Translations under genes and position numbers: made by a program
Origin: Candidatus Mcinerneyibacteriota bacterium
Lineage (GTDB): Bacteria > Macinerneyibacteriota > Macinerneyibacteria > Macinerneyibacteriales > DSCS01
Length of the DNA stretch: 35,613 nucleotides
Direction: 5' to 3'
Assembly (NCBI GenBank): GCA_016937175.1
Contig: JAFGWL010000056.1
Span: 230,845 to 266,457, forward strand
The notes under the pieces: generated by a model
Database searches by the model: none
Told to the model about the DNA's origin: nothing
Seen by the model: the letters and a program-made list of their open reading frames with translations, nothing else
Part shown: piece by piece, positions 2,282 through 35,077 of the stretch
How the letters are laid out: each line of letters opens with the position of its first letter
Numbering within the stretch: the first letter of the stretch is position 1

Positions 2282-3163
2282 TCAGGAATCGCAGGACCGG
2301 CACTCTTCATCAGCCAGTTCGAATTCCAATGTAGGATGTGTGATCCCCTCCTCTTCGAGGACCTTTCGGACATCCTCTTTGACTCCCTGAGTCTCTTTGA
2401 TGGATATATTCTTTTCCAAAACCAGATGACAGGAAAAGATATGGTGCAGCCCGTCCACAGACCAGAGATGTATGTCGTGGGCTTCTTTCACGCTCCTCAG
2501 GGATTCGATCCTCCCTTTGATCAGGGCGATATCGCTTCCTCTGGGCGTATACTGAAGGAAGATCTGAACGGCTTCTTTGATATTGGGGATGATCTTCGCG
2601 ATAATAAAGAGAGACAGCCCTACCGAAAGGATAGGGTCAAGGATGGGAAGGTAAACCACTTTCATGACCAGGCTGACGATGAGGACAGCTACCCATCCGA
2701 TGGCATCTTCCAGAAGATGAAACATCACCACTTTTTCATTGATCTTGGTCCCGCCTTTCAGGCGAAGGACAGCTAACCCGTTCACCGCCACCCCGACGAG
2801 GGCCATGAGGATCATCCCCTCCACCCGGACATCCTCCGGATGGAAAAGGCGGGGGATCGCTTCACTCAAAATGAAGACCGAGCCTGTGAGAAGAATAGCG
2901 GCGCTGATAACCGCTCCGAGAAGAGAAAAACGTTTGTAGCCATAAGTGAGACGCTCTGTCCTCGGTTTATGCGACAAGCGTTCCAGATACCAGGAGAGGC
3001 CGAGGGTAACAGAATCCCCAAGATCATGGACAGCATCCGAAAGAATCGCCATACTGTTTGTCAACAAGCCCCCGACGATCTCAATAAATGTAAAAGCAAG
3101 GTTCAGAAAAAAAGCCACGGCGATGTTCTTGTGGCTTTCATGATGATGGTGGTGATGAGCCAT
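2282..3163 (-). CDS. CDF-family divalent cation efflux transporter
   Basis: The 293-residue product has the six-helix cation diffusion facilitator layout. The family's metal site is visible as SDAVHDLGD in helix 2 (His46, Asp50) and HLLEDAIGW in helix 5 (His149, Asp153), followed by the cytoplasmic C-terminal domain (about 205-290). Members exchange cytoplasmic Zn2+, Cd2+, Co2+ or Fe2+ for protons. The start is MAHHHHHHES: six consecutive His at residues 3-8, a natural metal-binding tail. The C-terminus ends in CRSC, another possible metal ligand. The gene has its own promoter just downstream of crcB; metal specificity cannot be read from the sequence. Confidence 0.93.
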   Translation of the reverse strand: MAHHHHHHESHKNIAVAFFLNLAFTFIEIVGGLLTNSMAILSDAVHDLGDSVTLGLSWYLERLSHKPRTERLTYGYKRFSLLGAVISAAILLTGSVFILSEAIPRLFHPEDVRVEGMILMALVGVAVNGLAVLRLKGGTKINEKVVMFHLLEDAIGWVAVLIVSLVMKVVYLPILDPILSVGLSLFIIAKIIPNIKEAVQIFLQYTPRGSDIALIKGRIESLRSVKEAHDIHLWSVDGLHHIFSCHLVLEKNISIKETQGVKEDVRKVLEEEGITHPTLEFELADEECRSCDS

Positions 3164-3223: not shown

Positions 3224-3622
3224 TTAAAAGCGTACAGGCGCTAGCCAGGCCGCTGTCCCCTTTCCCGAAAGATATCCCAGGAAGATAAAGAGAAGAGCGG
3301 AAGCATGATGGGCTGCAATATAGGCCAGGGCAAATCCTGCCCGTCCTGATGAGAAAAACGAAAAGAGTTCTTTCGTATAAAGGGAAAAGGTCGTGAAAGA
3401 GCCCAAAAATCCTGTTACAAGAAGAAGATTTAGAGTGGTAAAGCCTCCATACAACCTGGCGACTCCTTCTATGACGCCCAAAATAAAACACCCCAGGGTA
3501 TTGATAAGGATAGTGGAAAGGGGAAACTTCAGATCGGTAAGGAGATTAAAAAGCAGTGCTGTTCCGTAGCGGGCGGCAGCTCCCATGGCTCCGCCAAGAG
3601 AAATAAAAAGAAAAGACTTCAC
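3224..3622 (-). CDS. crcB: Fluoride channel CrcB/Fluc
   Basis: The 132-residue, four-helix protein has the Fluc signatures: GGAMGAAARY near the N-terminus, an INTLGCFILG segment with the conserved Asn41, and GFLGSFTTFSLY (71-82) containing the break in helix 3 and the Phe-box region. Fluc proteins form dual-topology dimers that let fluoride leave the cytoplasm. The length is normal. A single crcB gene here implies a homodimer. A fluoride riboswitch precedes it, which independently supports the assignment. The ribosome-binding site is GCGGAGG, 7 nt before the ATG. Confidence 0.96.
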   Translation of the reverse strand: MKSFLFISLGGAMGAAARYGTALLFNLLTDLKFPLSTILINTLGCFILGVIEGVARLYGGFTTLNLLLVTGFLGSFTTFSLYTKELFSFFSSGRAGFALAYIAAHHASALLFIFLGYLSGKGTAAWLAPVRF

Positions 3623-3641
3623 AAAGGCCTCCGCTTGATGT

Positions 3642-3693
3642 CTCAGGAGTCATCAGCTTCAAAAAGCGGTTTCCAGGTGAACTCCATCACCTT
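3642..3693 (-). ncRNA. Fluoride riboswitch (crcB RNA motif)
   Basis: Read on the minus strand, the leader of crcB contains GGTGATGGAG, then CACC, AAACCGC, a short hairpin loop and GCTGATGACTCCT. These are the conserved blocks, in order and spacing, of the fluoride-binding crcB motif. The downstream platform can be read too: AAGCGG (3636-3631), which overlaps the ribosome-binding site GGAGG (3632-3628), is complementary to CCGCTT (3669-3664) inside the aptamer's conserved ACCGC block. Fluoride binding would hold that block in the aptamer and free the ribosome-binding site (inference). This fits translational activation by fluoride. Confidence 0.93.
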
Positions 3694-3779
3694 ATGTCAC
3701 AGGAAGAAAAAGGGTGGAACAGTATCCCCGGTGACAAACTTAAATAAAGAAACGATCTATTTTGTGCTATGCAGCAAAA

Positions 3780-19381: not shown

Positions 19382-20308
19382 ATGCGTTATCAATCTATTC
19401 TTGAGACAATCGGAAAGACACCGTTGGTGCGGATCAACCGGTCCGGTTTTACCGGAGAACTCTATGCAAAACTGGAAGGGTTTAATCCCGGGGGCAGCAT
19501 CAAGGACCGCGTTGCGGTACATATGATCAAAAAAGCCCTGGAATCCGGAGAGCTGAAAAGATCGATGACGATCCTTGAGGCCACATCAGGAAATACAGGG
19601 ATCGGCCTGGCTATGGCAGGAGCTGTGCTGGGGATCAAGGTCCATATTGTCATGAGCGAAGGCGTCTCTCCGGAGCGTGTCAGGATCCTTCAGGCTCTGG
19701 GGGCTGAGATCACTTTCTCCCCGGCAGATCGTCACACAGACGGAGCGATTATCATGGCTGAACAGATCTTCCGCCGGGCTCCGGAACGTTTCTTCCGGCC
19801 GGACCAATTTTCCAATCCGGCCAATCCGGCCATCCACCGGGAAACCACAGCCCGTGAGATCTGGGAAGAGATGGAGGAAGAGGTCGATTTTGTCATAGCC
19901 GGCATGGGCAGTACCGGAACTCTCATGGGATTTGCCGATTTCTTTGCCTCCAGGTCCACAAACGTCCGCATCATGGGTGTCCGCCCCGCTGTCGGCGAGA
20001 CCATCGACGGTATCAAGACATCCAAAACCAGTCTGACTCCGGCTCTCTATGAAGAGATGAAGATCGACAAGATCTATGAGATCAGACGACAAGAGTCCCT
20101 ACAGGCTGCCCGAAGACTGATCAGGGAAGAAGGGATCTTTGCCGGAATAAGCGGAGGAGCCGTCTATGCAGCTTTCCTTCAGAATCAGCAGAAGCTTGAA
20201 AGGAAAAAGGGTGTCCTGGTGATAGCGGATAACAGCTTCCGTTACATGGAAAGCGGCCTCTTCGACCCCTCATGCTGTCGGGAGGAGACCCTGGCTGTCT
20301 GTCTTTGA
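19382..20308 (+). CDS. cysK: Cysteine synthase (PLP-dependent, CysK/CysM type)
   Basis: The 308-residue protein belongs to fold type II PLP enzymes: Lys41 in NPGGSIKDRVA, the phosphate or substrate loop EATSGNTGIGLAM (Thr68-Gly73) and the PLP-contact loop GMGSTGTLMGF (about residue 178). This is the O-acetylserine or O-phosphoserine sulfhydrylase group, making L-cysteine from an activated serine and sulfide. It could be CysK or CysM; length fits either. It ends with a Cys-containing tail (CCREETLAVCL). It lies just upstream of the methionine operon and has no terminator before it, so sulfur assimilation and methionine genes are adjacent. The ATG follows AAAGGAGG. Confidence 0.9.
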   Translation: MRYQSILETIGKTPLVRINRSGFTGELYAKLEGFNPGGSIKDRVAVHMIKKALESGELKRSMTILEATSGNTGIGLAMAGAVLGIKVHIVMSEGVSPERVRILQALGAEITFSPADRHTDGAIIMAEQIFRRAPERFFRPDQFSNPANPAIHRETTAREIWEEMEEEVDFVIAGMGSTGTLMGFADFFASRSTNVRIMGVRPAVGETIDGIKTSKTSLTPALYEEMKIDKIYEIRRQESLQAARRLIREEGIFAGISGGAVYAAFLQNQQKLERKKGVLVIADNSFRYMESGLFDPSCCREETLAVCL

Positions 20309-20317
20309 AAAAAAAGC

Positions 20318-20345
20318 TTGATTCATTTCAGAATATGATTATAAT
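20318..20345 (+). promoter_or_regulatory. Sigma-70 promoter of the methionine operon
   Basis: TTGATT (20318-20323), 16-bp spacer and perfect TATAAT (20340-20345), inside the gap between the cysteine synthase stop (20308) and the leader ORF. The decamer CTTGATTCAT covers the -35 box (20317-20326) and recurs at 20375-20384 on the leader ORF start. Confidence 0.7.
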
Positions 20346-20375: not shown

Positions 20376-20498
20376 TTGATTCATCTGAACTGCGTTAGTT
20401 CTGGCCCTTGTTTCAAAGAACCTGTCATTCTCTCACGCCACTACCTTCTTATTTTCAAAATGTTTATCCTCAACATGGTGATGTGCAGCATCGCCTGA
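20376..20498 (+). CDS. Met-rich leader peptide of the methionine operon
   Basis: The stretch opens with a near-perfect ribosome-binding site (AAGGAGGTGA, 20361-20370) 8 nt before a TTG at 20376, reading 40 codons to TGA at 20496-20498. The ATG at 20370 is also in frame but only 2 nt from the core site. The last 12 residues are MFILNMVMCSIA, so Met29, Met34, Met36 and Cys37 are concentrated at the end. The final codons lie in a 7-bp hairpin: GGTGATG (20477-20483), loop TGCAG, CATCGCC (20489-20495). This is what a ribosome-sensing attenuator for methionine (and cysteine) would look like. No S-box or T-box consensus is visible. Whether it is translated is untested. Confidence 0.55.
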   Translation: MIHLNCVSSGPCFKEPVILSRHYLLIFKMFILNMVMCSIA

Positions 20499-20613: not shown

Positions 20614-22005
20614 ATGAACCGGATTATTAAATTCGGGGGGTCTGTCTTGACAGACGCTGACTCCCTTTATAAAGCTGCAACCATCGTCCAAGCCTACCCG
20701 GGACACCGCATAGTCGTCTGCTCCGCCCTCAAGGGAGTGACCTCCACTCTTTGTCAAGCCGTCTCTTCACACGATTGGGACCCCATCCGTATCAGAGACA
20801 TCCTCATCAGTGAAAAAGAAAAGCACTTGGACCTGCTGCACAGTCTTGTCCCCCCAGACCGCAACAGCCGGACAGAATCTGAGATTACCCGACTTGTGGA
20901 AGAGGCCCTCACAAAGCTTCTTATGTTTTCGCCCCCCTTTCCCCCGGAAGAGACGGCCTTTGTCCCTCTTCTGGGAGAACGCCTTTCTTCTCTTCTCCTA
21001 CACAGTGTCCTGAAAGCGCAGGGATCAGATGCGGTTATACTGCTTCCGGAAGAGATCCCTCTGGTCACCGACGGAAAGAGCGCTTATCCCCGGATCGACC
21101 TTTTGCTTTCCGGGACACTTTTCTCTACCCCATCAGGGGAAACATCAGTCACCCTGGTCCCGGGTTTCTACGCCCTCCATCCCTCGGGTGGAATAAGGCT
21201 TCTGGGCCGCGGGGGCAGCGACTATACCGCCGCCGCTCTGGGATTTCTTTTTAATGCTGAGAGTGTGGATCTCTGGAAAGATGTCGCCGGCTTTTTCAGC
21301 GGAGACCCCCGGGAACTCCCCGGAGCTCTCTTAAAAAGCCATTTGAATTACGAAGAGGCTGCTGAACTCTCCTATTACGGAGCTCATATTCTTCATCCCG
21401 AGACGATCCCTCCCCTCAGAGTGAAAAAGATCCCCCTGCGGCTCTTTTCTTTTAAAGACTCCTCCACCCCGGAAAGCCAGCATACTCTCATCGACCAGGC
21501 CGGTGACCCCGGGGGAGATATCATCACAGGTATTGCATCCACAGACAATATCGGTATCATAACAGTGAGAGGAAGCGATGTGGGAAATGAACCTGGGATT
21601 TTAGCCCGTCTGACAGGGGAACTGACCTGCAGCGGGATCAATATCAAGTCTGTTCTGACGTCCCAGACCTCCATCAATATCCTCGTAGAGGCCGGAGACC
21701 TGGACATGGCTCACCGGATCCTGGGAGAGGAAGGCTCTTCCGGGAGGGCTGTCGTCTACAGTGACCGTTTCAGCCTGGTTTCTCTGGTGGGAAACGGGAT
21801 CAACTCGGCCCCTGGAATCGCAGCAAGGGCCTTCAATGCCCTTGCAGAGAAGAAGATCCCCGTCCATATGATCTGCGCCGGCGCTTCACCCGTCTCGGCC
21901 TATTTCATTGTAGAGCGCCCCCTCTGCAGGGACGCTGTCCGTACAGTCCATGATGCTTTTTTCAATACAAGGGAGGTTATTTATGAAACGCCAGCGGTCC
22001 ATTGA
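20614..22005 (+). CDS. lysC: Aspartate kinase
   Basis: The 463-residue protein is a monofunctional aspartokinase. The N-terminus has KFGGSVL (ATP/aspartate site), a GRGGSDYTAAALG segment (about 207-219) and DLWKDVAGFFSGDPR (about 226-240, the variant of the usual TDVDG..TADPR). From about residue 308 there are two ACT domains (IITVRGSDVGNEPGILARL and LVSLVGNGINSAPGIAARAF). Catalyses L-aspartate + ATP -> 4-phospho-aspartate. The ACT domains normally bind feedback inhibitors; which amino acid cannot be read. It is the first gene of the operon, overlapping the next by 23 nt. In this context it serves methionine synthesis, and perhaps lysine and threonine too. Confidence 0.95.
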   Translation: MNRIIKFGGSVLTDADSLYKAATIVQAYPGHRIVVCSALKGVTSTLCQAVSSHDWDPIRIRDILISEKEKHLDLLHSLVPPDRNSRTESEITRLVEEALTKLLMFSPPFPPEETAFVPLLGERLSSLLLHSVLKAQGSDAVILLPEEIPLVTDGKSAYPRIDLLLSGTLFSTPSGETSVTLVPGFYALHPSGGIRLLGRGGSDYTAAALGFLFNAESVDLWKDVAGFFSGDPRELPGALLKSHLNYEEAAELSYYGAHILHPETIPPLRVKKIPLRLFSFKDSSTPESQHTLIDQAGDPGGDIITGIASTDNIGIITVRGSDVGNEPGILARLTGELTCSGINIKSVLTSQTSINILVEAGDLDMAHRILGEEGSSGRAVVYSDRFSLVSLVGNGINSAPGIAARAFNALAEKKIPVHMICAGASPVSAYFIVERPLCRDAVRTVHDAFFNTREVIYETPAVH

Positions 22006-23296
22006 AGAGATCAATGAAAAGATTCTTAACGGCAGTGCCGTCGTTCTCACAGCTTCTGAGATCAGCGCTCTTTCTGCGAACCATTCCCCCGAAGATATCT
22101 TCGATGCCGTGGATGTCGTCACGACCGGGACTTTTTCTCCCATGTGTTCCAGCGGAGCGTTTCTGAACTTCGGGCATACCTCTCCTCCGATAAAGATGAA
22201 AGAAGTCCGTCTCAACGGAGTCGAAGCCTATACAGGCCTGGCTGCCGTCGACGCCTATATCGGAGCAGCCCAGTCATCTGTCCGGGACCCCGCCTACGGA
22301 GGAGCCCACATCATCGAGTCCCTGATCAAAGGAGAGAACGTCCTGCTGGAAGCAACGGGAAGTGTCACTGATTGCTATCCCTCCCCCTCCGATTCACGCC
22401 CCATAAGCCTGAACACCATCAACGAGGCCTATCTTTACAATCCCAGGAACTGCTATCAGAATTATGCGGCAGCTGTCAATACTTCTCGGAAGACTCTTCG
22501 GACCTATATGGGCACACTTCTCCCCGGGTCCCGAAATATCAACTATTGTACTTCGGGAGAGCTCTCCCCCCTTATGAACGATCCCGATCTCAGGACCATC
22601 GGAACAGGGACAAGAATCCTTCTCTGCGGCGGCCCGGGATATATTTCGGCACGGGGGACGCAGTTCAACACCCATAAAAAGAAAAACAGGTTCGGCCTCC
22701 CAGTGGAAGGGGCAGCCACCCTTGCTCTGACAGGCGACATGAGATCCATGAGCCCCCGTTTTGTCAAAGGGGCCTACATGCCCGGGTACGGGGTCACGCT
22801 TTTCGTCTCTGTAAGCATCCCCATTCCCCTTCTGGATACAGGCCTGGCATCCCGTGTGATGGTCACAAACGATCGGATCGAAATGGCTGTCCGTGATTTT
22901 GCAGATCCCGCACACGGACAGACTGCTCTTGTCCGTTTCAGCGACCTTGTATCGGGAGTTGTAGAGATCAACGGGAAAAAGAGCCGCACAGTACCTCTCT
23001 CCAGTTTTACCATGGCGCGGGAGTCTGCCGAACTTCTGAAAACCTTGATACAAAAAGGAAGTTTCCTGCTCTCCGCCCCTGTGGAAAGTTATGACGTCGC
23101 TCCTCCGGCGGAGACAGCTGCTGAAAAAACACCGCTCTCCTGCGCTCTTTGCGGGGCCTGTGTTGCTCTCTGCCCCGAAGAAGCCCTCTCTCTGGAGAAC
23201 AATGAGATCCGACTTGACGAAAAGCGCTGCTCCGGCTGCTTCCTCTGCAGGGAGATCTGCCCCTGCGGCCTGGCCAGAGGAGGAAGCCATGGATAG
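21983..23296 (+). CDS. Homocysteine-forming DUF39 protein fused to 2[4Fe-4S] ferredoxin
   Basis: The ~375-residue N-terminal part is the DUF39/HcyBio family (compare MA1821, MJ0100), which makes homocysteine directly from aspartate semialdehyde and a sulfur donor. Cys55 (FSPMCSSGAF) and Cys131 (VTDCYPSPSD) match the two catalytic Cys that I recall for MA1821. The C-terminal ~55 residues are a ferredoxin with two CX2CX2CX3C clusters (Cys387, 390, 393, 397 and 416, 419, 422, 426). Archaeal relatives have a separate NIL-domain ferredoxin, so here the electron or sulfur partner is fused and no NIL domain is seen. The ATG at 21983 follows GGGAGG; the frame overlaps the kinase by 23 nt. Confidence 0.92.
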   Translation: MKRQRSIEEINEKILNGSAVVLTASEISALSANHSPEDIFDAVDVVTTGTFSPMCSSGAFLNFGHTSPPIKMKEVRLNGVEAYTGLAAVDAYIGAAQSSVRDPAYGGAHIIESLIKGENVLLEATGSVTDCYPSPSDSRPISLNTINEAYLYNPRNCYQNYAAAVNTSRKTLRTYMGTLLPGSRNINYCTSGELSPLMNDPDLRTIGTGTRILLCGGPGYISARGTQFNTHKKKNRFGLPVEGAATLALTGDMRSMSPRFVKGAYMPGYGVTLFVSVSIPIPLLDTGLASRVMVTNDRIEMAVRDFADPAHGQTALVRFSDLVSGVVEINGKKSRTVPLSSFTMARESAELLKTLIQKGSFLLSAPVESYDVAPPAETAAEKTPLSCALCGACVALCPEEALSLENNEIRLDEKRCSGCFLCREICPCGLARGGSHG

Positions 23297-24041
23297 ATAT
23301 ACAGACCGTTTTTACCGCTCTTTCGGCGATCACAACCGTCTTGTCTATTACCATGTCGTGGCCTGTGAAAGCGACCTGTGGATCGGTATCGATGCTTCTT
23401 CGGCGAATGATTCTCTCCCGGAAGCCGCCTTGGAATTGACAGTAGAGGCCAGGTCCGATGTCCTGAAAGCCATTGAAGAGTCCCCCGATTTTCGGACAGC
23501 CCTTTCTCCGCTTGAGGGCCACCCTTCCTTTCCTCAACCCATGACAGAGGCTTCCCGCAAGGCAGGGACAGGGCCCATGGCGGCTGTAGCCGGATTCATC
23601 GCAGACCGTGTCAACGAAGGATTATGCAGCCTTTTCTCCCCGAAAAAACTCCTGGTGGAGAACGGAGGGGATATCAGCGCCTGGGCCGAAGACGAGATCA
23701 GGGTCGGGATCTTTGCCGGCCCGTCTCCCCTTTCGGGACGCCTGGGCGTGACAGTTCCCTGCCTCGGACAGCGCCGGGGGATCTGCACCTCATCCGGGAG
23801 CGTGGGGCATTCACTCAGCTTCGGAAAGGCCGACGCAGCGGTGATCATCTGTGATTCAGCCGCCCTGGCTGACGCCTATGCTACCGCAGCAGCCAACCGC
23901 ATCCACACACGGTCCGATCTCACTGTCGTAATCGAAGAGCTTAAAGCCGAGCCCCGTATTCTGGGAAGTATCCTCATCTTCGGTGAAGAGATCGCTGTAG
24001 CCGGCGGATGCCCTCTCTATGCTCGAAGGGAGGAGCCATGA
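23289..24041 (+). CDS. UPF0280 (COG2122) protein, homocysteine pathway partner
   Basis: The 250-residue protein matches the UPF0280/COG2122 family, an ApbE-like fold, with KKLLVENGGDISAW (about 118-130), GICTSSGSVGHS (about 160-171) and ADAYATAAANRI (about 196-207). The M. acetivorans member (MA1715) was linked genetically to the DUF39 route to homocysteine; its exact chemistry is, as far as I know, not settled. ApbE relatives attach FMN to proteins, so a flavin role is possible. Its ATG overlaps the end of the DUF39 gene by 8 nt and its stop overlaps metF by 4 nt (ATGA), which strongly ties it to this operon. Confidence 0.92.
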   Translation: MDRYTDRFYRSFGDHNRLVYYHVVACESDLWIGIDASSANDSLPEAALELTVEARSDVLKAIEESPDFRTALSPLEGHPSFPQPMTEASRKAGTGPMAAVAGFIADRVNEGLCSLFSPKKLLVENGGDISAWAEDEIRVGIFAGPSPLSGRLGVTVPCLGQRRGICTSSGSVGHSLSFGKADAAVIICDSAALADAYATAAANRIHTRSDLTVVIEELKAEPRILGSILIFGEEIAVAGGCPLYARREEP

Positions 24042-25000
24042 AAGTCACCGATGTTATCCGGAAGGGAGACAGTAAGCTCCTCTCCCTGGAGATCGTCCCT
24101 CCCACCCGGGGTTATTCCCTTGACGAAGCTCTTGACCATACTGAACAGCTCATGGCCTTTCGCCCCGATTTTATCAATGTGACAACCCATCAGCCCCATG
24201 TGGTTCTTGAGGAGAAAAACGGAGAAGTCATCAGGCTCCAGAAGAGCAATAAATGCGGGACCGTAGGTGTCTGTTCGGCTTTAAAACACCGCCTGGGAAT
24301 CGAAGCGATCCCTCATGTGATCTGCGGCGGGAACACCCGTTTCGATATAGAGGATAAATTGATCGATCTCAATTACCTTGGTTTTGACAACCTCTTTATT
24401 GTGAGAGGCGATCCTCTCCCGGGGCATAAAACATTCATGCCTCCCCGCGAAGGGCACGAATACGCTTCCGGGTTGGTCCGACAGGCCCGTAACCTCAATG
24501 AAGGGCTGTACACTTCGATCCAGGAAAAAGGTGTCCCCACCGATTTCTGTATTGGAGTCGCCGGGTATCCGGAAAAACATTATGAATCGTTCAACCGGAA
24601 CAAAGACCTGGATCATCTGTCTGAAAAGATCGAAGCAGGGGCCCACTTTGTCATCACGCAGATGCTCTTCAGTGCAACTTTCTACATATCTTTCGTCGAC
24701 GAACTGCTGAAAAGAGGACTTCAGATCCCTGTCATTCCGGGAATCAAACCGGTGACCCGTTTACAATCTCTGAAAAGGATCCCGGGAACCTTTCATATCG
24801 AGATCCCCCAGAGACTTGTCTCTTCACTGGAAGCAGCACGCACACCGGCAGAAGAAGCCAAAGCCGGGACAGAATACATGGCCCGTCTGATCCGGGACCT
24901 GTTGGATGCCGGGGCGCCCGGTATCCATATCTTCACCATGGGCAGCGGAAAAAGCACACAGAGGCTTCTGGAGACAGCCTTTGGGAAAGGCGGGATCTGA
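24038..25000 (+). CDS. metF: 5,10-methylenetetrahydrofolate reductase
   Basis: The 320-residue TIM-barrel flavoprotein has MetF signatures: LLSLEIVPPTRG (the FAD/folate Glu), AIPHVICGG (cf. the H-L-T-C motif), VRGDPLPG (R-G-D-P), IGVAGYPEKH, FVITQMLF and a C-terminal GIHIFTMGS. It makes 5-methyl-THF from methylene-THF, the methyl donor for MetH encoded one nucleotide downstream. The VTTHQ segment differs from the common VTYGA, a variant seen in some anaerobes (inference). The reductant is unknown, since it may use NADH or ferredoxin. The ATG follows GGGAGG and overlaps the previous stop. Confidence 0.95.
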   Translation: MKVTDVIRKGDSKLLSLEIVPPTRGYSLDEALDHTEQLMAFRPDFINVTTHQPHVVLEEKNGEVIRLQKSNKCGTVGVCSALKHRLGIEAIPHVICGGNTRFDIEDKLIDLNYLGFDNLFIVRGDPLPGHKTFMPPREGHEYASGLVRQARNLNEGLYTSIQEKGVPTDFCIGVAGYPEKHYESFNRNKDLDHLSEKIEAGAHFVITQMLFSATFYISFVDELLKRGLQIPVIPGIKPVTRLQSLKRIPGTFHIEIPQRLVSSLEAARTPAEEAKAGTEYMARLIRDLLDAGAPGIHIFTMGSGKSTQRLLETAFGKGGI

Positions 25001-25001
25001 C

Positions 25002-28000
25002 ATGAAGGCCTTACTGAAAGACCTGCTTTTGAATAAGACCCTGTTGGGGGACGGTGCCATGGGTACCTCGATCCAGGCCTGGTTAAACGGAGAAAACCAA
25101 AAAGGTTCCAATGAACTCCTGAATATCACAGCGCCAGACTTGATCCGCGGGATTCACAGGGATTTTCTCCTGGCCGGAAGCGATATTATCGAAACGAACA
25201 CTTTCGGCGCTTCAGCCCTCTCTCTCAGAGATTACGGTTTGGAAGAACGCACTTTTGAAATCAATCAAGCCGCCGCTTTTTTAGCCCGTAAGTGCGCGGA
25301 TACAGAATCGACTGTTTCCAAACCCCGTTTTGTGGCCGGATCTATCGGCCCTACGGGTTACCTTCCTTCTCTGGGACAGGTCTCTTTTGATACCCTTTAT
25401 GAAAGCTATAAAACCCAGTGCAGAGGCCTAATTCAGGGAGGAATCGACTATTTCCTGATCGAAACGTGTCAGGATCTGCTTCAGGTCAAGGTGGCTCTCA
25501 TCGCCGCCCGGGATGCTGCTCTGGAAAACGGAAAAAAGATCCCTGCTGCTGTCTCCCTTTCCCTTGAGAAGGGACGCCTGATCACCGGTTCTGATATCAA
25601 AACCATCGTGACCGTCCTGGAGCCTTTCGACCTGCTCTATCTCGGGTTCAACTGCGGTAATGGATTCGAAGGCCTTGAAGAGGCCCTATCCTCTTTAGGC
25701 CGATATTCTCCCTACCCGTTGGCCCTTATGCCCAATGCCGGCTTCCCTGAAGTGAAAAACGGCCATCTCTTTTATTCCATGACACCGGAAGAATATAGCA
25801 GCGAAATAATACGGCTCATGGAGATCATCCCGCTCTCGCTTGTTGGCGGATGCTGCGGGACCACTCCGGCTCATATTCAAGCCTTAAAAAAAGACCTTGA
25901 CCATTACCCTCTGAAGCTCCGGAAAAAACCGCTAAAAGAGGCCCGTCTGGCCTCTCTCTTCAAAGCTGTCGACATCAAGACATCCCGCCCCCCCTTTCTT
26001 ATAGGAGAGCGCTCCAACACTCAGGGGAGCAAAAGATTTAAAGAGCTTTTGCTGAAAGATGATTTCGACTCTATGATCGTTACAGCTTTGGAGCAGGAAA
26101 GATCAGGAGCCGCCGCATTGGATCTCTGCTGCGTTATCCCCGGACGCGATGAGGTAAGGGATCTTTCGCGCTTTGTCGAAGAGCTTAACCGGCAGGCCGG
26201 GACACCTCTTTGTCTTGACACGGTCAACACCGAAGCTTTGGAAGAAGCCCTGAAAAGGGTAAGCGGGAAACCCCTTATCAATTCAGTACATTTGAAGGAT
26301 AAGGCGCAGGCCGAGAAGATCTTCACTCTGGCAAGAAGGTTCGGCGCGTCCCTGATCTGCCTGGCCATGGATCAACAAGGGATGGCTCTCACTTCACAGG
26401 ACAAGATCGAAAAGTCAGAGAAGATCTATTCTCTGGCTGTCGATGAATATGGATTAGCGCCCGAAGACCTTTTCTTCGATATGCTGACCTTCACCATCGC
26501 TTCAGATACGGAGCTCAATTCAGCCTATGAGACACTAACAGCTCTGAAGGAGTTTAAAAAACGTCATCCGCGGACGAATACGATCCTGGGAGTCAGCAAC
26601 GTCTCCCACGGGCTCAAACCGTTCCCACGAAAAATCCTCAACTCACTTTTTCTCCAGTCAGCAGTGGAACATGGCCTTGATGCCTCCCTTGTCCACGCCG
26701 GAAACCTTACGCCTCTTCATCACTTCCCTGAAAAACTTATCACTTTGGGTCGGACTCTCCTTCTCTCTCCGCAGCCTGGCTCTGAACGTTTAACCGATTT
26801 TCTTCGACTATGTGACACGGCAACGGGAGCACTAGAACAAAATAAATCCTCTAAGAAAGAAAAACTCACTCTTTTTCAGGCCATCATCGACGGCCGTAAA
26901 GAGGAATCCCTGGACTTGGTTCAAAAAGAACTCAAGACGAAGAAAGCAGAAAATATTATCGAAGAGGTTATCATCCCGGCTATGGAAGAAGTAGGACGCC
27001 TCTTTGAATCCAATCAACTGCAGCTCCCTTTCGTCCTTCGTTCTTCTGAGACCGCGAAAAAGGCTCTGGACCTTCTTTCTGCCCATTTATCAGAACGAAA
27101 ACATAAGGGGACGATTCTTCTGGCCACTGTTTACGGCGATGTCCACGATATCGGCAAAAACTTAAGTGCCATTATCTTCCGCAATCACGGTTATCGTGTC
27201 GTTGATATCGGGGTCGACCGGTCGGCAGAAGAGATCATTGATGCCGTGAAGACCCATGAGCCTGATGCGGTGGGCCTGAGCGGACTTTTGGCCAATTCAG
27301 CGATTTATTTCGGAACGGTTTTATCCCTCTTTGCAAAAAACGACTTGACCTTGCCGGTTCTCTGCGGAGGAGCAGCCCTGACCAGGGATTTTACAGAAAA
27401 CCATCTGGCCCCTCTCTATAACGGGGGCGTCTATAAAGCTGATGATGCTTTCGATGCTATCCGGTTTTTAAGACAACACCCTCTTCCTCAAACGACGAAA
27501 TCGTGTGAGGTATCCTGCGCTGAAAAAAATGAACGGGGGAAAACCTTAAACCAAAGGATGGGTTCAGAAAGAGTTAACCAGGTCCACTATCCGGTCGAGG
27601 CGATTCTTCCCTTCCTGAATAATAGCAGGCTTTTCAAAATCCGCTGGGGAGGACTTGATCCCGATACGGGAAACGAGGAGTTAACCCGCCTTCTGCAAAA
27701 AGAAGGACTCTACCAAAGCATCAAAGGCGTATTCAGCTCTTATCCCTGCTTACGGGACAGGGAGAGCCTTACCCTTTTTGACTCAGAAGGAAAGCCTGTC
27801 ACCACATTCCGTTTTCCCAGGGACACAAGCGGTGAGAATCGATGCATCACCGACTTTTTCCGGGAAGAAGGAGACCATATCACTCTCTTTCTTGTCACAG
27901 CCGGTCCGGAAATCGCCCGTGAAGAAGCCCGCCTTCTGGAAAAGGATTCTTACTATGATTATTACCTCTTACATGGATTGGGAACGGAACTGGCCGAAGC

Positions 28001-28250
28001 CGCCGCCGCCTGCCTGAACGACGAGTTAAAAAAGAAAGAGGGCCCATCCTTACGTTTCGGTTTCGGCTATCCCGCCTGCCCCGATCTGAAATACCAGGAG
28101 ACGATCTGTCGGCTGCTGCAAGCCGGATCTATCGGGGTCTCCGTGACGCCCTCCTTTCAGCTTATCCCCGAGCTAAGCACCGGAGGATTTATGATCCACA
28201 ATGAAAAAGCCTTTTATTTTCCGATGAAGGACAAAGGAGGATTACAATGA
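25002..28250 (+). CDS. metH: Cobalamin-dependent methionine synthase
   Basis: The 1082-residue protein has all four MetH modules in order. The homocysteine-binding barrel (about 1-320) has zinc ligands Cys218 (FNCGNG) and Cys284/285 (GGCCGTT). The folate-binding domain (about 330-600) follows. The cobalamin-binding domain (about 620-840) has GDVHDIGKN, where His715 is the lower axial ligand. The AdoMet-binding reactivation domain (about 850-1082) carries VHYPVEAILPFLNNS and GFGYPACPD. It methylates homocysteine with 5-methyl-THF. Cobalamin dependence is explicit. The ATG is 1 nt after the metF stop, and the 3' end overlaps asd by 4 nt. Slightly shorter than E. coli MetH. Confidence 0.97.
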   Translation: MKALLKDLLLNKTLLGDGAMGTSIQAWLNGENQKGSNELLNITAPDLIRGIHRDFLLAGSDIIETNTFGASALSLRDYGLEERTFEINQAAAFLARKCADTESTVSKPRFVAGSIGPTGYLPSLGQVSFDTLYESYKTQCRGLIQGGIDYFLIETCQDLLQVKVALIAARDAALENGKKIPAAVSLSLEKGRLITGSDIKTIVTVLEPFDLLYLGFNCGNGFEGLEEALSSLGRYSPYPLALMPNAGFPEVKNGHLFYSMTPEEYSSEIIRLMEIIPLSLVGGCCGTTPAHIQALKKDLDHYPLKLRKKPLKEARLASLFKAVDIKTSRPPFLIGERSNTQGSKRFKELLLKDDFDSMIVTALEQERSGAAALDLCCVIPGRDEVRDLSRFVEELNRQAGTPLCLDTVNTEALEEALKRVSGKPLINSVHLKDKAQAEKIFTLARRFGASLICLAMDQQGMALTSQDKIEKSEKIYSLAVDEYGLAPEDLFFDMLTFTIASDTELNSAYETLTALKEFKKRHPRTNTILGVSNVSHGLKPFPRKILNSLFLQSAVEHGLDASLVHAGNLTPLHHFPEKLITLGRTLLLSPQPGSERLTDFLRLCDTATGALEQNKSSKKEKLTLFQAIIDGRKEESLDLVQKELKTKKAENIIEEVIIPAMEEVGRLFESNQLQLPFVLRSSETAKKALDLLSAHLSERKHKGTILLATVYGDVHDIGKNLSAIIFRNHGYRVVDIGVDRSAEEIIDAVKTHEPDAVGLSGLLANSAIYFGTVLSLFAKNDLTLPVLCGGAALTRDFTENHLAPLYNGGVYKADDAFDAIRFLRQHPLPQTTKSCEVSCAEKNERGKTLNQRMGSERVNQVHYPVEAILPFLNNSRLFKIRWGGLDPDTGNEELTRLLQKEGLYQSIKGVFSSYPCLRDRESLTLFDSEGKPVTTFRFPRDTSGENRCITDFFREEGDHITLFLVTAGPEIAREEARLLEKDSYYDYYLLHGLGTELAEAAAACLNDELKKKEGPSLRFGFGYPACPDLKYQETICRLLQAGSIGVSVTPSFQLIPELSTGGFMIHNEKAFYFPMKDKGGLQ

Positions 28251-29269
28251 AGATCGATGCCGCTCTCCTGGGAGCCACAGGGGCTGTCGGGCAGAAATTT
28301 ATCCAACTTCTCCGGGGACATCCCTTGTTCAGGCTTACAGAACTCTTTGCTTCCGAACGCTCGGCGGGTAAATCTTACGGCGAAGCAGTGACCTGGAAAC
28401 TCTCTGCCCCTCCGGATCCTGCCATCGAAGCTCTTCCTGTTTTCTCCTGCGATCAGGAGCCCCGGGCCAGGCTTGTCTTCTCCGCCCTTGATGCCTCGGC
28501 TGCCGGGCCCATAGAAAGCCGCCTTGTGAGCCTGGGACATCTTGTCATCTCCAACGCGAGAAACCACCGGATGGATAGCGATGTCCCCATCATGATCCCC
28601 GAGATAAACGGATCTCTTCTGAACAAGGTTTCTCCAAACAAGGGCGCTCTGATCACAAACCCCAACTGTTCCACAGCAGGGCTGGCGCTCTCCCTCTTTC
28701 CTCTCCACCGTGCTTTCATCCTTCAGTCCGTTCATACAGTGACAATGCAGGCCTTTTCAGGCGCAGGATATCCGGGCCTCTCTGCCTGGGATATCGTAGG
28801 CAACGTCATCCCCTTCATCGACGGGGAAGAAGAGAAGATCGAACAGGAGCTTCCCAAGATCTTCGGCCGTTATAACGGAAAGAGCTTCAGACCGGCTCCC
28901 ATTTCTGTCACGGCCTCCTGTAACCGTGTCCCGGTCCGTGAAGGCCATCTCCTCGATGTCCGGGCATCTTTTGAAAAGCCTTTCACTCTGGAAAAAATAC
29001 GGGAGGAGTGGGCTCTGTTCCGCTCTGAAGCGCCTTATCTCACTCTCCCTTCATCTCCCGGATCTCCGGTTATATACATCCCTACAGCGGATATGCCCCA
29101 ACCCTCTCTTTTTCATGAGAAGAACAGTATGAGTGTCTATACAGGACGCCTGAAGGCCCTCTCAGAAAAAGAGATCTGTTTTAAGGCTCTTGTCCACAAC
29201 ACAGTCAGGGGAGCAGCAGGAAACGCACTCCTAATAGCTGAGAGAGCGGCCTTAATCGGCCTACTTTGA
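28247..29269 (+). CDS. asd: Aspartate-semialdehyde dehydrogenase (archaeal/yeast type)
   Basis: The 340-residue protein has an NADP-binding GATGAVGQ (9-16), the catalytic Cys141 in NPNCSTAG, TMQAFSGAGYPG (about 166-177) and His234 in CNRVPVREGH. These last blocks mark the archaeal/yeast-type ASADH branch rather than the E. coli type. It reduces aspartyl phosphate to aspartate semialdehyde, the substrate for the DUF39 protein three genes upstream. Start overlaps the metH stop by 4 nt. As the last gene it completes the pathway; a short T run follows the stop but no convincing terminator. Confidence 0.95.
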   Translation: MKIDAALLGATGAVGQKFIQLLRGHPLFRLTELFASERSAGKSYGEAVTWKLSAPPDPAIEALPVFSCDQEPRARLVFSALDASAAGPIESRLVSLGHLVISNARNHRMDSDVPIMIPEINGSLLNKVSPNKGALITNPNCSTAGLALSLFPLHRAFILQSVHTVTMQAFSGAGYPGLSAWDIVGNVIPFIDGEEEKIEQELPKIFGRYNGKSFRPAPISVTASCNRVPVREGHLLDVRASFEKPFTLEKIREEWALFRSEAPYLTLPSSPGSPVIYIPTADMPQPSLFHEKNSMSVYTGRLKALSEKEICFKALVHNTVRGAAGNALLIAERAALIGLL

Positions 29270-29278
29270 TCTTTTTCC

Positions 29279-29306
29279 TTGACAGCTCTTTTTATGCAGT
29301 TACTAT
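29279..29306 (+). promoter_or_regulatory. Promoter of trpB
   Basis: TTGACA (29279-29284), 16-bp spacer, TACTAT (29301-29306). The -10 element lies inside the first operator, so a bound repressor would block it. Confidence 0.6.
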
Positions 29307-29350: not shown

Positions 29351-30550
29351 ATGAAGCCACAGACGATGCCTGATATCCGGGGGTATTTCGGAGAGTATGG
29401 AGGAGCCTACCTTCCCGAGGTACTCCAGGGGATCATGGCAGAGATCACGGAAGCCTATGAGGAGTGCCGTCGCGATCCCGGTTTTCAACAGGAGCTGAGC
29501 CAGGCCCTCACTCACTATGTAGGACGGCCCTCCCCTCTTTATTTTGCCTCTAACTTGTCCCAAGGGTGCTCAGCGGCCAGGATCTATCTGAAGCGGGAAG
29601 ACTTGAATCACACCGGGGCTCATAAGATCAATCACTGCCTGGGGGAGGCCCTTTTAGCCCGCCGCATGGGTAAAAAGAAGCTCATCGCTGAGACCGGCGC
29701 CGGCCAGCATGGAGTGGCTCTGGCCACGGCTGCAGCTTTGACAGGCATGGAATGTGATATCTATATGGGCCAGATCGACATTGAAAAAGAGCACCCCAAC
29801 GTCTCCCGCATGAAGATCCTGGGAGCCCATGTCATCCCTGTGACTACCAATACACAAAGCCTCAAAGATGCTGTTGATGCAGCCTTCGAAGCTTATCTGA
29901 AAGACCCGGTGAACCAATTCTATGCCATCGGATCTGTTGTGGGCCCTCATCCCTTTCCCCGGATGGTACGCGATTTTCAGTCCGTAGTCGGGCGCGAAGC
30001 CAAAGAACAATTTTTTGCGATGACAGGCCGTCTCCCTGACAGTGTCATCGCCTGTGTCGGAGGAGGGTCCAACGCCATGGGCATCTTCAGCGCCTTTCTG
30101 GATGAACCGTCTGTATCCCTCATCGGAGTGGAGCCTTCAGGACGCGGGTTCAAGGACGGGGATCATGCAGCGACGCTCACAAAAGGGCGCCCGGGCATCC
30201 TCCACGGGTTCCGCTCCTATCTCCTTCAGGATGATGCCGGCGAACCTCTTCCCGTCTATTCTGTCGCCAGCGGGCTGGATTATCCGGGTGTGGGCCCTGA
30301 ACACAGCTACCTCAAGGACATGGGGCGGGCGGCTTATAAGACGATCTCCGATGAAGAAGCGATCGACGCCTTCTTCATACTCTCCAGGGCAGAAGGGATC
30401 ATTCCGGCCATCGAATCGGCACACGCGGTAGCCTACGCCATGAAGCGCGCACGCGAAAACCCCGGAGAATCCATCCTGGTCAACCTGTCAGGCCGCGGAG
30501 ATAAAGACGTCGATTTTGTACTGGAGCATTACAAAAGGGATGATTTCTGA
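29351..30550 (+). CDS. trpB: Tryptophan synthase beta chain (TrpB1)
   Basis: The 399-residue protein is a standard TrpB1: Lys92 in [10 protein letters not shown] (PLP), Glu114 in [20 protein letters not shown] (phosphate loop) and the C-terminal LSGRGDKD. It condenses indole and serine to tryptophan. Unusually, no trpA or other trp gene is next to it: only trpR follows. That suggests indole salvage, or a trpA elsewhere. TrpB1 normally works with TrpA; the alternative TrpB2 type is excluded by its sequence. It is controlled by a promoter with two operators. Confidence 0.97.
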
Positions 30551-33259: not shown

Positions 33260-35077
33260 TTAAAGTGAGGTAAGAACGATATCCGTACCCCTCTGTTCCA
33301 ACACCAGAAGGGCTTGAGAAGCAGACGACCAGGCAGGAGCTCCAAAACTGCCGGGCAATACCTTTCCGTTCACAACAAGTTTCCAGTCAGCATCCAGGCG
33401 GTCCGGCGTGATCCAGTACCGGGTAAAACCTGCTTTCTCGGTGGCCAGGGCTGCATACTGATCTCCGCTTCCGGAAACAGCAAGAGCCGCTATCCCGTCC
33501 CAGACCTTATCATCGGCAGGCCTCCCGTCTCTGTTCACGCGGAAGCGCATTTCGGGAGTCCTGACCCGTGAGTAGAAGTGGAGGCTTTCGGGAGCATAAA
33601 CAGTCTCCATATCTTCCCCTTCTCCGCGGATGACCTTGTCTCCGTAGACATAGATCCGTTTGACAGAACCCACTGACTTGTCGGCATAGAACTGAAATTG
33701 AACCGCCCCGATCCTCTCGTTCACCGTGGGCGCAATGGCAAAGACAGCGTCAAACTCCTCCCTCTTTGTTCCGTTTTTGTGCAGGACATAAGTATAGGTT
33801 CCGGGATTGTCATAGTCTCCGCCCTCTTTAAGCTTTTTATAGGCGATATACCAATCCCCTTCCGGAGTCACGGCCACCCGGCTGCTACTCCAGAAAGCAA
33901 GAGGGTCGGAAATGCTGAATCGTTCAAGGATACGTCCGCTGGGGGCGATCATGACAAGATCGTCTTTTTCATCGATGGTCCAGAAGTAAAAGTCCCCCTT
34001 AGCTTTACGAACAGTAATCTGTTTGAAATAAGGGCCGGAGGTGCGGATTGTTTTGGATGCGATATCATATTCAACGATTTCAAATTTCCTTCCGGGGATC
34101 CCGATCTTCTCCCTGAGAGCGGGAATGGGTGTCTCCAAGGTAAAGACGATCTTCTTTGAAGAGACATGGAAATTGGTGACCTGTGTCACGTCCGGCACCG
34201 CGACTCTCTTTTCTCCGAGAACGACCTCGTGATAGTTACTCTGTTTGTCGAATCCTGCGCAGTAGAACTCATTTGTACCGGGGATGAACCCCACCCGAAA
34301 GACGATATAATAGGGACCTGCTTTCTTTTCGTGGTTGATATAGACATAACGTTCCTCGGGAGTCGCCTCGCCCCCTACGTAGAGGAAATGCGAACCGTCT
34401 TCAGAAGTGTGGAGGTCTCCCATATACATCCAGTCGTCAAGCACGATCTTTGCCCGCTTGAAGAGCCGGAAGCAATACCTTCTGACTTCCATGGCAAACT
34501 CGGTCTGTCCGTAGGCCGGATCATGTACAGGAGCCTGGTCTGTGGTCCAGAAGGGGACACCGGGAAATCCGTTGACGTAGGGGTAATATTTTTCTCTCAC
34601 AACATAGGAAAAGGAGATATTCTTCCCGTCATGGCTAACCCAGTCGTCGGTATCAGGGTCATTCTGATCCATATCCAGAATCCGGTCAAAGGGGCCGTAT
34701 TTCACGCCGTTGAAAATCAGGAAAAAATCATATTGCTCATACGGTTTCGGGTTCGGATTCAATTTCAAAAGGGGCTCTCCCAGGGGGCGGGGTTCGTAAG
34801 GGTCGAAACCGGCTTCGTAGATGGGCTTTTCCTTATTGGGCTTGCGGACCACAGCCAAGGTGTATTTCACACGGCCGTCATCAAAAAGGCCGATTTTACC
34901 GTAGACGAACTCCTCTCCGTCCCTGAGTGTGTAGATTTTTTGAACCGGAACCGTCTTGTTGTCTTTCTGAACGGTTTTCTGAGATTTCTCCTTCAGACGA
35001 TCGAGCAAATCGGCTGACGAGAGGCTGACAGTAAAGATCATTACTAGAACTACAGCCAAAGTTTTTTTTACTGACAT
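33260..35077 (-). CDS. Large exported protein of unknown function, repeat-like
   Basis: The 605-residue protein starts with a signal peptide (MSVKKTLAVVLVMIFTVSLS, cleavage after about residue 22, then DLLDRLKEKSQ). The rest is beta-rich, with recurring motifs such as FNGVKYGPFDRIL (about 120), YINHEKKAGPYYIV (about 235) and VVNGKVLPGSFG (about 575), suggesting beta-propeller or related repeats. I recognise no catalytic motif or family. It is probably periplasmic or surface-exposed. The ATG has an AAAGGAG site. It is separated from the racemase gene upstream by 122 bp. Confidence 0.7.
   Translation of the reverse strand: MSVKKTLAVVLVMIFTVSLSSADLLDRLKEKSQKTVQKDNKTVPVQKIYTLRDGEEFVYGKIGLFDDGRVKYTLAVVRKPNKEKPIYEAGFDPYEPRPLGEPLLKLNPNPKPYEQYDFFLIFNGVKYGPFDRILDMDQNDPDTDDWVSHDGKNISFSYVVREKYYPYVNGFPGVPFWTTDQAPVHDPAYGQTEFAMEVRRYCFRLFKRAKIVLDDWMYMGDLHTSEDGSHFLYVGGEATPEERYVYINHEKKAGPYYIVFRVGFIPGTNEFYCAGFDKQSNYHEVVLGEKRVAVPDVTQVTNFHVSSKKIVFTLETPIPALREKIGIPGRKFEIVEYDIASKTIRTSGPYFKQITVRKAKGDFYFWTIDEKDDLVMIAPSGRILERFSISDPLAFWSSSRVAVTPEGDWYIAYKKLKEGGDYDNPGTYTYVLHKNGTKREEFDAVFAIAPTVNERIGAVQFQFYADKSVGSVKRIYVYGDKVIRGEGEDMETVYAPESLHFYSRVRTPEMRFRVNRDGRPADDKVWDGIAALAVSGSGDQYAALATEKAGFTRYWITPDRLDADWKLVVNGKVLPGSFGAPAWSSASQALLVLEQRGTDIVLTSL

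Follow-up and report, generated by a model that had tools for sequence, protein, structure and literature searches.

The DNA analysed here, a 35,613-nt stretch referred to as the window, lies on contig 6 (C6) of the genome of a poorly known anaerobic bacterium, Candidatus Mcinerneyibacteriota (G000; 1.88 Mb in 71 contigs, 98.7% complete) and carries a six-gene operon predicted to make methionine from aspartate and sulfide. The genes, whose start codons were chosen from Shine-Dalgarno sites, encode an aspartate kinase (AK), a HcyBio (DUF39/COG1900) protein fused to a ferredoxin (HcyBioFd), a UPF0280 protein, MetF, MetH and Asd (Table 1). In order, the first three junctions overlap by 23, 8 and 4 nt, MetF and MetH are separated by 1 nt, and MetH and Asd overlap by 4 nt, confirming to the base the coordinates and tight packing (4- to 23-nt overlaps or a 1-nt gap) given in the initial annotation. 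Each product matches its own family strongly (Pfam or NCBIfam). Promoter-like sites are found ahead of the operon and, at 29279-29306, ahead of trpB, so the transcription unit plausibly ends at asd.

Table 1. Operon genes and other features of the window.
Feature	Positions	Strand	Evidence or remark
AK, aspartate kinase	20614-22005	+	PF00696, ACT_9, ACT_7; TIGR00657 274 bits, above cut-off
HcyBio (DUF39/COG1900)-ferredoxin fusion, L-aspartate semialdehyde sulfurtransferase (predicted)	21983-23296	+	PF01837, Fer4_10
UPF0280/COG2122, sulfide/persulfide delivery partner (predicted)	23289-24041	+	PRK04334 197 bits
MetF, methylenetetrahydrofolate reductase	24038-25000	+	PF02219 187 bits
MetH, cobalamin-dependent methionine synthase with activation domain	25002-28250	+	TIGR02082 789 bits
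Asd, aspartate-semialdehyde dehydrogenase, archaeal/eukaryal type	28247-29269	+	TIGR00978 364 bits, above cut-off
Cysteine synthase, CysK/CysM type	19382-20308	+	TIGR01136 310 bits, below cut-off; upstream neighbour that also fixes sulfide
Promoter-like site TTGATT-16-TATAAT, sigma-70-like	20318-20345	+	directly after cysK; consensus match 10/12
Candidate leader open reading frame (ORF), 42 aa	20370-20498	+	strong Shine-Dalgarno; hairpin 20477-20495 at ORF end; read from sequence
trpB	29351-30550		own promoter-like site directly after asd
Fluoride riboswitch	3637-3700	-	ahead of crcB (3224-3622) and cation-efflux gene (2282-3163)
605-aa protein	33260-35077	-	no Pfam or NCBIfam match

The HcyBio portion of the fusion covers PF01837 over its full length (profile 1-349 of 349; 434.8 bits in Pfam). 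In the numbering of a longer reading (21950-23296) this domain ends at residue 374 and is followed at residues 395-438 by a C-terminal 2x[4Fe-4S] ferredoxin with two CxxCxxCxxxC motifs. Two cysteines, Cys55 (PMCSSG) and Cys131 (TDCYP), are invariant in all 26 HcyBio homologues compared, which come from many phyla. They correspond to Cys54 and Cys131 of the Methanosarcina acetivorans L-aspartate semialdehyde sulfurtransferase (L-ASST, MA1821), the former essential and the latter the second conserved cysteine of that enzyme (PMC12068725). The structural model of HcyBioFd (mean predicted local distance difference test score, pLDDT, 88.5) has a confident core and a low-confidence linker (373-385) ahead of the ferredoxin. 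Sequence searches found no solved relative of the HcyBio core, and a fold search with the model returned nothing at E <= 0.001, only the ferredoxin part resembling solved structures; as modeled, the COG1900 core (residues 1-370) may be an unsolved fold.

The best NCBIfam match of this protein is TIGR03287 (methanogenesis marker 16, MMP16), which raises a different reading: an enzyme resembling coenzyme M synthase (COG1900d, MMP16/ComF) that acts on sulfoacetaldehyde or another aldehyde and lies next to methionine genes by chance. MMP16, too, combines COG1900 and a ferredoxin domain in one chain (PMC12068725). However, the match reaches 135 bits, far under the 364-bit cut-off; the ferredoxin of MMP16/ComF, whose product is coenzyme M, is inserted within the COG1900 domain rather than placed C-terminally; and its conserved cysteines are different ones, whereas the window protein retains those of L-ASST. 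On score, cysteines and ferredoxin position this reading was rejected; the gene also sits between AK and metF/metH/asd, both here and in a congener (G001), and we consider the alternative extremely unlikely.

Among the other operon proteins, AK carries two ACT domains and is the sole AK in G000, a second match being PyrH (UMP kinase). UPF0280 (E 4e-58 against PRK04334, below the strict 271-bit cut-off) has a homologue of solved structure, PDB 2o34 (E 1e-24), and Asd has homologues in PDB entries 1ys4 and 4zhs. MetF is 48% identical to the MetF of a HcyBio operon from Mesoaciditogaceae (L022), and MetH shows domains PF02574, PF00809, PF02607, PF02310 and PF02965 (Pfam), with the motifs GGCCGT, DVHDIG and RxxxGYPxxPDL legible in its translation.

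A homoserine-based methionine route was not found in G000. Gene absences rest on profile searches of the genome: homoserine dehydrogenase (Hom, PF00742) gave no match in G000 or G001 but matched in all 14 control genomes, and a relative from the same order (G002) has homoserine dehydrogenase and lacks HcyBio. Neither MetX nor MetA was found in G000, nor was any true member of the MetB/MetC/MetY family (PF01053); other pyridoxal phosphate enzymes account for the partial matches to that family, at 21-31 bits: two are aminotransferases, one of them an aspartate aminotransferase, and the others a BioF/Kbl-family enzyme and a PatB C-S lyase. All were rejected as MetB or MetC. This was the genome-wide search that the initial annotation had named as the refuting test of its homoserine-free reading, which its outcome supports. 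A PatB-family C-S lyase is encoded at G000:C6:209055-209405 (L010 1234-2430), about 42 kb upstream of the six genes, and no MetB was found to feed it; Desulfovibrio vulgaris likewise carries a putative cystathionine beta-lyase (PMC5764234).

Taking together the gene content and order, the conserved cysteines, the homoserine route not found and the conservation in the congener, we think it very probable that the operon specifies a complete, homoserine-independent pathway from aspartate and sulfide to methionine. AK would phosphorylate aspartate and Asd would reduce the product to aspartate semialdehyde. HcyBioFd, aided by UPF0280, would then put sulfide sulfur onto the aldehyde carbon, probably via a persulfide on Cys55, with the fused ferredoxin domain supplying electrons to yield homocysteine; finally, MetF would make 5-methyl-tetrahydrofolate and MetH would methylate homocysteine to methionine. 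How sulfur is inserted and what UPF0280 does we infer from published work on homologues. In that literature (PMC5764234, PMC12068725; cited therein Rauch 2014, Allen 2015), the chemistry of the route rests on genetics and extracts in other organisms, and the enzymology of COG1900 is described as open, it being unsettled what donates the sulfur, how many electrons are involved and what NIL and COG2122 do (PMC12068725).

Several observations weigh against this pathway. The scores of MetF, MetH and UPF0280 fall short of the strict NCBIfam equivalog cut-offs. No NIL domain was found in the operon proteins (Pfam; no genome-wide NIL search was made); this domain is present in the characterised systems, where it is usual but not known to be essential. 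In the HcyBio tree the branch of the window protein is long (0.94), making an altered specificity conceivable, and, with G000 in 71 contigs, a gene inside an assembly gap could escape the search.

Among the closest known systems, MA1821-MA1822 of M. acetivorans shares with the window protein the COG1900a domain, the same two cysteines, a ferredoxin partner and homoserine-free homocysteine formation. It differs in that MA1821 continues into CBS domains and its NIL/ferredoxin partner, MA1822, is a protein of its own, whereas the window protein lacks both CBS and NIL and has its ferredoxin fused C-terminally. In D. vulgaris and D. alaskensis, DUF39, NIL-ferredoxin and COG2122 proteins provide the same three functions in a bacterium and are genetically required for methionine. 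D. vulgaris mutants in these genes are rescued by methionine, and its hom mutants need only threonine; unlike the operon genes, the three D. vulgaris genes lie far apart by locus number (DvMF_1464, 0262, 0044), and homoserine dehydrogenase is kept for threonine (PMC5764234). The DUF39, ferredoxin and UPF0280 trio that the initial annotation had linked to the methanogen route is present, with DUF39 and ferredoxin as one fused gene, but without the usual NIL domain in the operon.

UPF0280 and HcyBio might also be seen as a general sulfide-assimilation module for cysteine as well as homocysteine. In favour of this, cysK is located 305 nt upstream, outside the overlapping gene unit, and mutants of M. 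acetivorans MA1715 (COG2122) are reported to be rescued by cysteine, homocysteine or an increased sulfide supply (PMC5764234). In D. vulgaris, however, the fitness profiles of COG2122 and DUF39 nearly coincide (r = 0.98; PMC5764234), and the chemistry of the CysK family allows direct use of sulfide; we regard the wider role as unlikely.

HcyBio loci from a scan of public genomes were compared (the 80 best-scoring out of at least 577, several on short contigs). In 67 of 86 loci HcyBio has a separate ORF with ferredoxin motifs nearby. Where such a ferredoxin was read over its whole length it usually measures 130-142 aa, a segment in the position of NIL coming first and a 2x[4Fe-4S] part at the C-terminus. 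Fused loci comprise the window, G001, Mesoaciditogaceae L022, Thermotogaceae L061, Aminicenantes L074 and Desulfuromonas SDB L089, with a spirochaete (L075) uncertain; the NIL-less fusion is also seen in a few other phyla. At the fused loci HcyBio adjoins UPF0280 directly and no separate NIL/ferredoxin gene stands alongside; Lutispora (L062) is intermediate, with a separate 69-aa ferredoxin that lacks the N-terminal (NIL) part. Going by anatomy only, the fused C-terminal ferredoxin would replace the separate NIL/ferredoxin subunit, an arrangement that suggests that NIL is dispensable. A single origin of the fusion was rejected: the HcyBio tree needs four label changes, at least two of them forced by well-supported branches, a count to be read with the caveat that L075 and L089 are long branches. 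No HcyBio relatives were found on viral contigs.

HcyBio-ferredoxin-UPF0280-MetH-MetF clusters are common in Bacteroidota and present in Spirochaetota, and in Lutispora (Bacillota) MetF precedes MetH in the HcyBio cluster. AK lies directly upstream of HcyBio in Neomarinimicrobiota L031, Treponema sp. L078 and L022, and in a small tree with long branches these AKs cluster with that of the window (98/96), apart from the AK of the G001 lysine operon. Asd-AK follows HcyBio in L016 and HcyBio-UPF0280 in L061 and L074; the latter two resemble the window in that a fused HcyBio-ferredoxin is accompanied by AK and Asd of its own, but they lack metF and metH in the cluster and their fusion falls elsewhere in the tree. 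L022 (WFSH01000192.1) has five of the six genes and the same fusion in the same order, AK-HcyBioFd-UPF0280-MetF-...-MetH; it differs in an extra 199-aa gene ahead of a shorter MetH without activation domain and in having cobA, not asd, after MetH, on a short contig. The complete set of six occurred at none of the 80 loci read, out of at least 577 and with several contigs short.

In G001 the six-gene order is kept at 57-78% identity, with AK-HcyBioFd-UPF0280-MetF-MetH on C55 and MetH-Asd-TrpB on C27, the operon being split across the two contigs within MetH. The gene-order comparison in related genomes proposed at the outset thus came out in favour of a packing that is conserved, not accidental. 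Occurrence in a bacterium, stressed at first, is not what is surprising: the route itself is already established in bacteria (PMC5764234) as well as in methanogens, and HcyBio-MetH-MetF clusters are common. The new details are an operon complete with all six genes, a fusion without NIL and an apparent restriction of aspartate semialdehyde to methionine. A literature search, with most subscription papers outside its reach, found no paper describing such an operon.

The rest of the aspartate family bears on that apparent restriction. AK and Asd serve lysine and threonine in many bacteria, and MetF-MetH doubles as a recycling pair, so the operon might mainly recycle homocysteine for the S-adenosylmethionine methyl cycle, with AK and Asd feeding other products such as diaminopimelate (DAP), lysine or threonine, while little homocysteine would be made de novo. 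An orphan ThrC-like gene in G000, for a threonine-synthase-like pyridoxal phosphate protein (G000:C44:12225-13136; L019 1303-2514), would fit such a role. Yet Hom and DapB were not found in G000, and its ThrB match is IspE, so that no ThrB was found either; nor was any other de novo route to homocysteine. The congener makes lysine through another AK/Asd pair, in an operon asd-AK-dapB-dapA-dapD-aminotransferase-lysA (G001:C27:1609-9803; L120, L125). On contig 56 of G000 the two genes flanking that locus are separated by an empty 187 nt (L124 1361-3800), which excludes an assembly gap and indicates that the lysine operon is really absent there. We therefore judge a mainly recycling role very unlikely. 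In G001 some 7-8 kb separate the lysine operon from the end of the methionine operon.

Since the G001 lysine operon has its own Asd and AK, the genus appears to keep a methionine-dedicated AK/Asd pair separate from the lysine pair, and G000 kept only the former. Without DapB, ThrB or a second AK, aspartate semialdehyde has no recognised use in G000 other than methionine, and AK and Asd would, from anatomy only, serve methionine alone. We give about even chances to the fuller proposal that the aspartate family is pruned to methionine, with the operon as sole maker and consumer of aspartate semialdehyde and the NIL-less HcyBioFd as a one-polypeptide homocysteine synthase. A PF01212 protein of threonine-aldolase size is present, and no specific family model confirmed it as threonine aldolase; both G000 and G001 encode tryptophanase-like PF01212 proteins, about 458-477 aa long (L112, L113).

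Upstream of AK, the candidate leader ORF encodes a product ending in NMVMCSIA over the hairpin, and it might be an attenuation leader. Rfam gave no match for an RNA regulator in the operon leader, and its folding (z -0.81) is not better than that of shuffles. The corresponding region of G001 lies outside its contig, which ends within AK. Downstream, the location of trpB after asd is also kept in G001; no trpA appeared in the Pfam results for the window proteins scanned.

Automated tools would be likely to label genomes such as this one methionine auxotrophs. With sulfur insertion and ferredoxin in one NIL-less chain, encoded together with the enzymes that make its substrate and use its product, the operon offers a compact system for reconstitution or transfer to E. 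coli. If the pruning is real, G000 would be a clean case in which flux through the pathway can only reach methionine, an organism still making methionine from sulfide without deriving threonine, lysine or DAP from aspartate.

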